In this document: piece after piece, positions 58,976 to 58,997 of the stretch | Layout: each line of letters begins with the position of its first letter | Position numbering within the stretch: the first letter of the stretch is position 1 | Origin: Prorocentrum cordatum | Lineage: Eukaryota; Sar; Dinophyceae; Prorocentrales; Prorocentraceae | Assembly (NCBI GenBank): GCA_963575745.1 | Contig: CAUYUJ010014598.1 | Location: forward strand, 312,842 to 376,841 | Direction of reading: 5' to 3' | Length of the DNA stretch: 64,000 nt | Notes under the pieces: model-generated | What the model saw: only the letters and a program-made list of their open reading frames with translations | What the model was told of the DNA's origin: nothing | Databases searched by the model: none | Made by a program: the position numbers and the translations under genes

Positions 58976-58997
58976 CTTGAGCCAAAATGGCTACGGA
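58976..58997 (-). other. Dinoflagellate spliced leader sequence (complete, 22 nt)
   Basis: On the minus strand, T then CCGTAGCCATTTTGGCTCAA then G: every position of the published DinoSL consensus (D-CCGUAGCCAUUUUGGCUCAAG). The 5' flank is a TC repeat, so the element starts exactly where the leader starts. Only 52 nt separate it from the ORF1 ATG. Confidence 0.95.

Follow-up and report, generated by a model that had tools for sequence, protein, structure and literature searches.

The window analyzed here is a stretch of 64,000 nucleotides from Prorocentrum cordatum, and all positions without a locus name refer to it. Dinoflagellate cells add a 22-nt leader, DinoSL, to their own mRNAs by trans-splicing. 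The window carries a complete copy of that leader as DNA: DCCGTAGCCATTTTGGCTCAAG lies without a mismatch on the minus strand at 58976-58997, the only site in the window within three mismatches of DinoSL (there were none in 100 shuffled sequences). According to the initial annotation, the leader forms the very 5' end of an otherwise complete LINE, directly against a TC repeat and 52 nt before ORF1. The leader is indeed the 5' terminus of a LINE, and the repeat is there as described, directly upstream: a TC/GA microsatellite at 58998-59020 (called by TRF as (GA)12.5 at 58996-59020), which presumably was the target of the insertion. ORF1 is as near as claimed, but the distance from the end of the leader to the ATG at 58924 is 51 nt.

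ORF1 (57983-58924, minus strand) encodes 313 amino acids, with an N-terminal cysteine finger (CGVCGCEKN..CKSC) followed by a coiled-coil-like region; its match to DUF7491 falls below the cut-off. A Cys4 finger of this type (C-x-x-C...C-x-x-C, often with CGxxKN) stands near the start of ORF1 in L033, L036, L041, L047, the window element, and ten of the loci L001-L030. ORF2 is spread over three segments of the same strand. The first (56167-58143) contains an APE-type endonuclease at about 57055-57624, where the match to PF03372 exceeds the curated cut-off (E 3.2e-8). The second (55482-56480) holds the start of the reverse transcriptase (RT) in a frame different from that of the other two, and the third (53155-55659) continues with the RT and its YIDD motif, an RNase H-like region, and the C-terminal part. 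The YIDD-type motif and the RNase H-like region were recognized by eye, on the strand of the leader. The change of frame in the middle segment implies at least two frameshifts in ORF2, so this copy looks dead. The element is therefore complete with respect to its ends but not with respect to its coding capacity, which is intact in a relative, L044, as one open frame of 2131 amino acids.

The third segment of ORF2 has no match in Pfam, neither the window element nor L036 matches a Pfam RT, and the open frame of L044 stays below the cut-offs for both RNase_H (25.7 bits, cut-off 25.8) and RVT_1 (22.6, cut-off 29.6). PF03372 is above its cut-off in the window, L036, and L040, as is RVT_1 in L040 and L050; tblastn and custom profiles match the RT of the window and of the loci L033-L047. 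No relatives of the RT part of the window element were found in viral contigs or phages, nor was there a match in a search of PDB sequences. The element ends, on the minus strand, in ...TGTTAAACACACACA (52948-52967), +6050 from the leader, and then passes into a TC repeat matching the 5' flank (52935-52947), a putative target-site duplication (TSD) of 12-13 nt and of low complexity; no poly(A) was seen at this end. When the region 52301-59100 was compared with the window by blastn, it matched only itself. With an AP endonuclease and an RT and without long terminal repeats, the element is a LINE, a non-LTR retrotransposon. Elsewhere, the window contains a direct duplication in two parts, one of about 12.5 kb at 98% identity (14037-26579 and 34358-46832) and one of about 7.8 kb at 97% identity (6300-14085 and 26682-34450), with 100-base gaps of N at 26582-26681 and 46833-46932.

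The first 398 nt of the element were used to search the genome (4.13 Gb in 21,875 contigs). The 27 matches comprise the window itself, two places that carry only the leader-and-exon part (about positions 13-67 of the query), and 23 sister loci, one of them in two pieces. None of the sister matches starts before base 65: 16 begin there, six at base 131, and one at base 151. Nucleotides 23-64 have no match in any of the 23 listed sister loci, and they constitute an exon of 42 nt not native to the family (TCGCGCC...GGGTCTTG, 58934-58975, minus strand), which stops where the alignment with the sisters starts. The leader is at the 5' end of the element, as had been claimed, but this exon comes between it and the family sequence. 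As judged by eye, the window joins at CTTGCAG|TTGCAGCC, but to this leader-bearing foreign exon. Sequence similar to the exon follows a genomic AG at two places, in contigs C3058 (L069) and C8086 (L070), but both have diverged and the origin of the exon itself was not found; the 1.0-1.2 kb fetched around each place contains no LINE. On the simplest reading, a chimeric transcript would have been trans-spliced, then cis-spliced into the LINE, and then inserted.

The 5' flanks of 18 of the 23 sisters (L051-L068) were collected, leaving out five that match from base 131. All but the truncated L067 begin with DinoSL, single or stacked (17 of 18), nine of them with an exact copy, and L052 has a stack of six units. 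Nine sisters join at the same base, going from the leader (with an extra unit in one) to TTCGAAACGCG or something close to it. The others join, by eye, inside the 5' UTR at points where the family has an AG, such as GCCGAG|GGGAGG in L055, CCAAAG|CACGC in L059, and TTCAG|CCCAGGG in L052. Non-leader sequence shared further upstream by full-length copies had been named beforehand as evidence against the idea. In this family, blastn, with the low-complexity filter on, finds no pairwise similarity among 15 upstream flanks (all except those of L052, L055, and L067). Within subfamily A, nine copies show a single mismatch in positions 2-22 of the leader; the 22-column windows of the body average 9.5, and only 3 of 182 of them have one mismatch or fewer.

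A much younger family is represented by L044, which was among the 20 leader loci examined in depth. Besides its open frame, L044 has a poly(A) and a 16-nt TSD, CCCCATACCCGCTCGG, which abuts the leader and is not microsatellite sequence. Its body without the leader was used as query, and the 40 places scored, out of 209 candidates, all show 99-100% identity; 13, counting the place of the query itself, reach the top score. Apart from the query there are 39, of which L130 is N at its 5' end. Of the remaining 38, 36 start with the leader and 35 with an exact one. The exceptions are L082, whose leader has three mismatches, L072, which retains only the last 11 bases of the leader, and L118, truncated in the body. 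The 35 exact copies lie in 33 distinct flanks. In 29, leader and body meet at the main junction; three have a ladder longer by 15 nt (two of these share a flank), two have an extra G, and one is joined at the AG at position 7 of an inner relict leader that is fixed in the family. The 3' ends of 20 copies were also taken, giving 16 with both ends usable. In 12 of the 16, exact TSDs of 13-21 nt abut the first base of the leader and follow a short poly(A) of 5-9 at the other end (L073 and L087, both among the 12, are one duplicated locus, and the length of 21 nt includes As), while L077, L078, L084, and L088 have no exact TSD. By these marks in the DNA, the insertions can be identified as the products of target-primed reverse transcription of an RNA beginning with the leader. 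Because the leader supplies the first base of the inserted DNA, the template RNA would have begun with it, and the TSDs that end at the leader lend support to the leader-bearing template originally envisaged.

The third family, the L040 group, is more distant. Its endonuclease and RT are found by profiles separate from those of the window group, and the 40 places scored, out of 67 candidates, are L040 itself and 39 copies at 72-91% identity. All 39 were fetched, but L166 is N. Of the 38 assessable copies, 37 start with the leader, 23 of them exactly at positions 2-22, and in L164 the leader is decayed; a reversed leader fits at best with 9-12 mismatches. Above an older, fixed relict there are one, two, or three leader units in 18, 16, and 3 copies, respectively, and the inner units of these ladders are no more decayed than the outer, a point against the trans-splicing reading. 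L040 itself is joined, as seen by eye, at the AG of the old relict. Most insertions of the group lie in (TCC)n and have the same orientation: the 30 nt upstream are at least 80% pyrimidine in 35 of 37 copies, and TCCTCC or CTCCTC occurs upstream in 36 of 37. The 37 upstream stretches all differ, and blastn finds among them only short TCC-type matches and one real case. In that case, L132 (three units) and L140 (one unit) have about 33 nt of common flank beyond the TCC run, with four mismatches, and they represent either a single insertion that was duplicated and then changed by slippage, or two separate insertions at a site that is itself repeated. If the former, then the length of a ladder may also change by slippage, which weakens ladders as proof that leaders are added anew. 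Conservation of the leader alone was dropped as such a proof, since the mean identity in the L040 group is 95% for the leader and 94% for the roughly 50 nt next to it.

Taken over the three families, 94 of the copies fetched by a match to their bodies, with the leader outside the matched part, could be assessed, and the leader stands at the 5' end in 90 of them. Its absence from all sister copies had been named as evidence against the idea, but it is present in 17 of 18, 36 of 38, and 37 of 38 copies of the window, second, and third family, respectively. A leader-headed LINE was thus correctly recognized, but its scope is broader than the single element first described, as several LINE families show the leader.

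The genome as a whole contains 11,610 exact copies of the TCCG-leader (5,903 + 5,707) and none of the backward control. With A, G, or T as first base, 3,624 leaders have 12 pyrimidines directly upstream. In a sample of 50 leader loci, 25 have at least 10 pyrimidines in the 12 nt upstream, and eight have at most two, hence no pyrimidine tract to help a splice; the orientation bias is drawn from this 50-locus sample. A second relict leader follows the outer one at 16 of the 50 loci (empirical p < 0.01). From a list of 24 places, 20 stretches of about 7.8 kb each were read in the order listed; two places were passed over, and two fell inside other stretches. In 14 of the 20, endonuclease and RT profiles, which had been iterated on these very stretches, match in sense downstream of a leader; plain tblastn using the window proteins finds eight of the 20. 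If the fraction 14/20 held genome-wide, there would be about 8,000 LINE copies with a leader, an estimate from a small sample drawn from the first contigs.

The other six stretches (L031, L038, L039, L045, L048, and L049) have no counted LINE, and in L045 and L049 5,000 N mask most of the sequence. The RT profile matches L031 (E 1e-26), but this was considered unreliable, given that the profile was iterated on the same set, and it was left uncounted. Pfam searches of five non-LINE or unclear leader loci gave no match. The leader-headed insert in L031, 1,545 nt long and bounded by a TSD of 17 nt, matches nothing in Pfam and may be a retrocopy that was mobilized in trans. L035 has two leader-headed inserts in a row (301-1837): the first is a non-LINE insert of 1.5 kb, a CAGACA-type duplication follows, and the second leader is the one that heads the LINE. 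L048 and L049 (contig C39) appear to belong to one tandem array, in which a gene with PTPAPSASP-type repeats recurs, its leader and flank included. Downstream of the LINE in L042, at +5857 to +7515 from the leader, there is a Gag-like open frame with two CCHC knuckles recognized by eye.

As a control on TSDs, the end of the 5' flank of each of 19 loci was compared with the locus's own downstream sequence and with that of the 18 others. In L031, L032, L035, L044, L050, and the window, the locus's own match is longer than that to any other. Five of the 19 deep-read loci (L034, L037, L039, L042, and L047) have no match of 8 nt or more, and for the other eight, which have microsatellite flanks, foreign loci match equally well or better.

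The 5' end of these LINEs is very probably made by the spliced-leader trans-splicing of the host. The DNA itself displays the leader at the 5' end, TSDs, poly(A), variable junctions next to AG, ladders, and a foreign exon. From these we infer that the RNA of the LINE is trans-spliced, that transcription reads through from outside, and that the TCC target plays a role. RNA entering a copy from outside would be trans-spliced at an AG at or near the 5' end of the copy, giving a leader-capped, polyadenylated mRNA of the LINE. The element's endonuclease and RT would then copy this mRNA into a new site, with the leader as the first 22 bases of the insertion. In the next cycle, splicing to the AG at position 22 of the leader would replace the old leader without a scar, while splicing to the AG at position 7 would stack a new leader on the old one and add 15 nt. 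Alternatively, an AG further in or in the flank might be used. The exact joint can be placed only to within two letters, since AG ends the leader as well as the acceptor. The (TCC)n target of the L040 group would provide a pyrimidine tract just upstream of the AG, which ought to favor its use as a 3' splice site. The choice of different AG sites, even among near-identical copies, the 15-nt ladders, and the foreign exon all suggest that trans-splicing has probably re-added the leader, at least in many cases, to RNA that started outside the element. That RNA would have started in the flank, as ladders and the extra G fit an RNA begun upstream of the old leader. In this indirect way, the 15-nt ladders and the extra G at two junctions favor the earlier proposal of read-through transcription.

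There are other ways in which a leader might come to head a LINE. A chance match or an artefact of assembly can practically be dismissed, as nothing was found in its support, and 11,610 copies against none for the backward control, with distinct flanks and TSDs, speak plainly against it. The RT might have switched template, at the end of cDNA synthesis, from the RNA of the LINE to the SL RNA. Mammalian LINE-1 does form chimeras with small RNAs, according to one report (PMC13174262), but such a switch should often bring along the intron of the SL RNA. At the 50 loci and in the sister copies, as read by eye, the leader runs only to its splice site, beyond which comes either family-specific sequence or a second leader. 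An end at the splice site with a variable partner AG fits trans-splicing better, and template switching is highly improbable.

Perhaps instead each family acquired the leader a single time and has since passed it on in its DNA as the 5' end, possibly in the role of an internal promoter (a TTTT/TTTG box), so that no fresh trans-splicing is needed. This would account for the single junction in 29 of 35 copies of the young family and for the nearly equal conservation of leader and adjacent body in the L040 group. Slippage, as with L132 and L140, may alter the length of ladders, and a review proposes that retroposed DinoSL serves as a promoter (PMC6050394). It would not account for the different AG junctions, the extra G, and the shortened relict among near-identical young copies, nor for the differing internal joins in the window family and the foreign exon after the window leader. 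A ladder made by splicing, moreover, needs RNA begun upstream of the old leader. Exclusive inheritance thus seems improbable, though the leader may be inherited in some cycles, because leader and neighbor are conserved alike in the L040 group and one junction dominates the young family. Finally, the leader might be a passive by-product, as nearly all dinoflagellate mRNAs are trans-spliced, with the LINE's own start signal inside its body. The trans-splicing step is common to this explanation and to the preferred one, and the leader-headed non-LINE inserts with TSDs in the same sample (L031 and the first element of L035) speak for it. Against it, the L040 group lies mostly in (TCC)n in one orientation, which fits a role as splice site without proving one, and the window-family flanks have no upstream sequence in common, so any promoter that is copied along would have to be internal to the element. 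On balance, we consider a passive leader rather unlikely.

Slamovits and Keeling reportedly described, in 2008, recycled mRNAs tagged with DinoSL. Genomic relict leaders are known from host genes, and tandem relicts cut after base 7 at AG have been taken to reflect renewed trans-splicing after reverse transcription and reintegration (PMC3229502, PMC6050394). Relict leaders at 5' ends, with or without ladders, also head the LINEs described here, but those cases concern host genes. Here the leader heads LINEs that encode endonuclease and RT; several families show it, one of them very young, and TSDs end at the leader. The window insert, despite a genomic DinoSL at its 5' end, is not derived from a host gene, as its body is a LINE. 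For viral inserts in Symbiodiniaceae, LINEs have been named as likely facilitators of retroposition and relict DinoSL has been noted near inserts; there, however, 6 of 26 viral genes have a leader nearby, a LINE is about 17 kb from one of them, and the part of the paper available mentions no LINE that is itself headed by the leader (PMC10235124). The SymbioLINE-Dnmt elements of Symbiodinium are also dinoflagellate LINEs but have an ORF1 with a methyltransferase, and the terms "Spliced leader" and "dinoSL" are absent from the main text (PMC5890265). Trypanosomatid LINEs (L1Tc/ingi) likewise live in a host with leader trans-splicing, but they have a 5' Pr77 promoter and unspliced transcripts, whereas here the 5' end is the leader (PMC8190864, PMC4748587). 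Mammalian LINE-1/mRNA chimeras, attributed to trans-splicing or 5' transduction, resemble the 42-nt exon of the window in that a first exon is spliced to LINE RNA and inserted, but they are occasional (17 mRNAs; PMC13174262), whereas the leader heads nearly all the 5'-reaching copies fetched here. No report of LINEs with DinoSL 5' ends was found in the literature searched, which covered subscription journals only in small part.

A LINE copy normally carries a promoter in its own 5' end. Host splicing apparently sets the 5' end here, which would be another answer to the LINE promoter problem. The retroelement behind retroposition in dinoflagellates is given as unknown in a review that leans toward Ty1/copia (PMC6050394), and a 2025 survey leaves both LTR and non-LTR elements possible (PMC12014239). 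Leader-headed LINEs with TSDs are direct candidates for this machinery. Also, LINEs may inflate those estimates of retrogene number that depend on finding a relict leader nearby. One might go further and suppose that these are promoterless LINEs with host trans-splicing as a fixed step of the life cycle, the leader serving in every round as cap and 5' end and insertion into a pyrimidine microsatellite providing the next acceptor, that their enzymes are the long-sought mRNA-recycling machinery of dinoflagellates, and that most relict leaders in this genome are the ends of LINEs rather than of host retrogenes. We are nearly evenly divided over this larger picture and, if anything, a shade doubtful of it. 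DinoSL also turns up in a collection of viral sequences: a 7.2-kb contig (L071, IMGVR_UViG_3300045993_001077) contains two exact 21-mers of the leader within positions 2746-2913, one of them directly before an open segment of 267 amino acids, and the contig is perhaps from a dinoflagellate virus or perhaps a piece of host.
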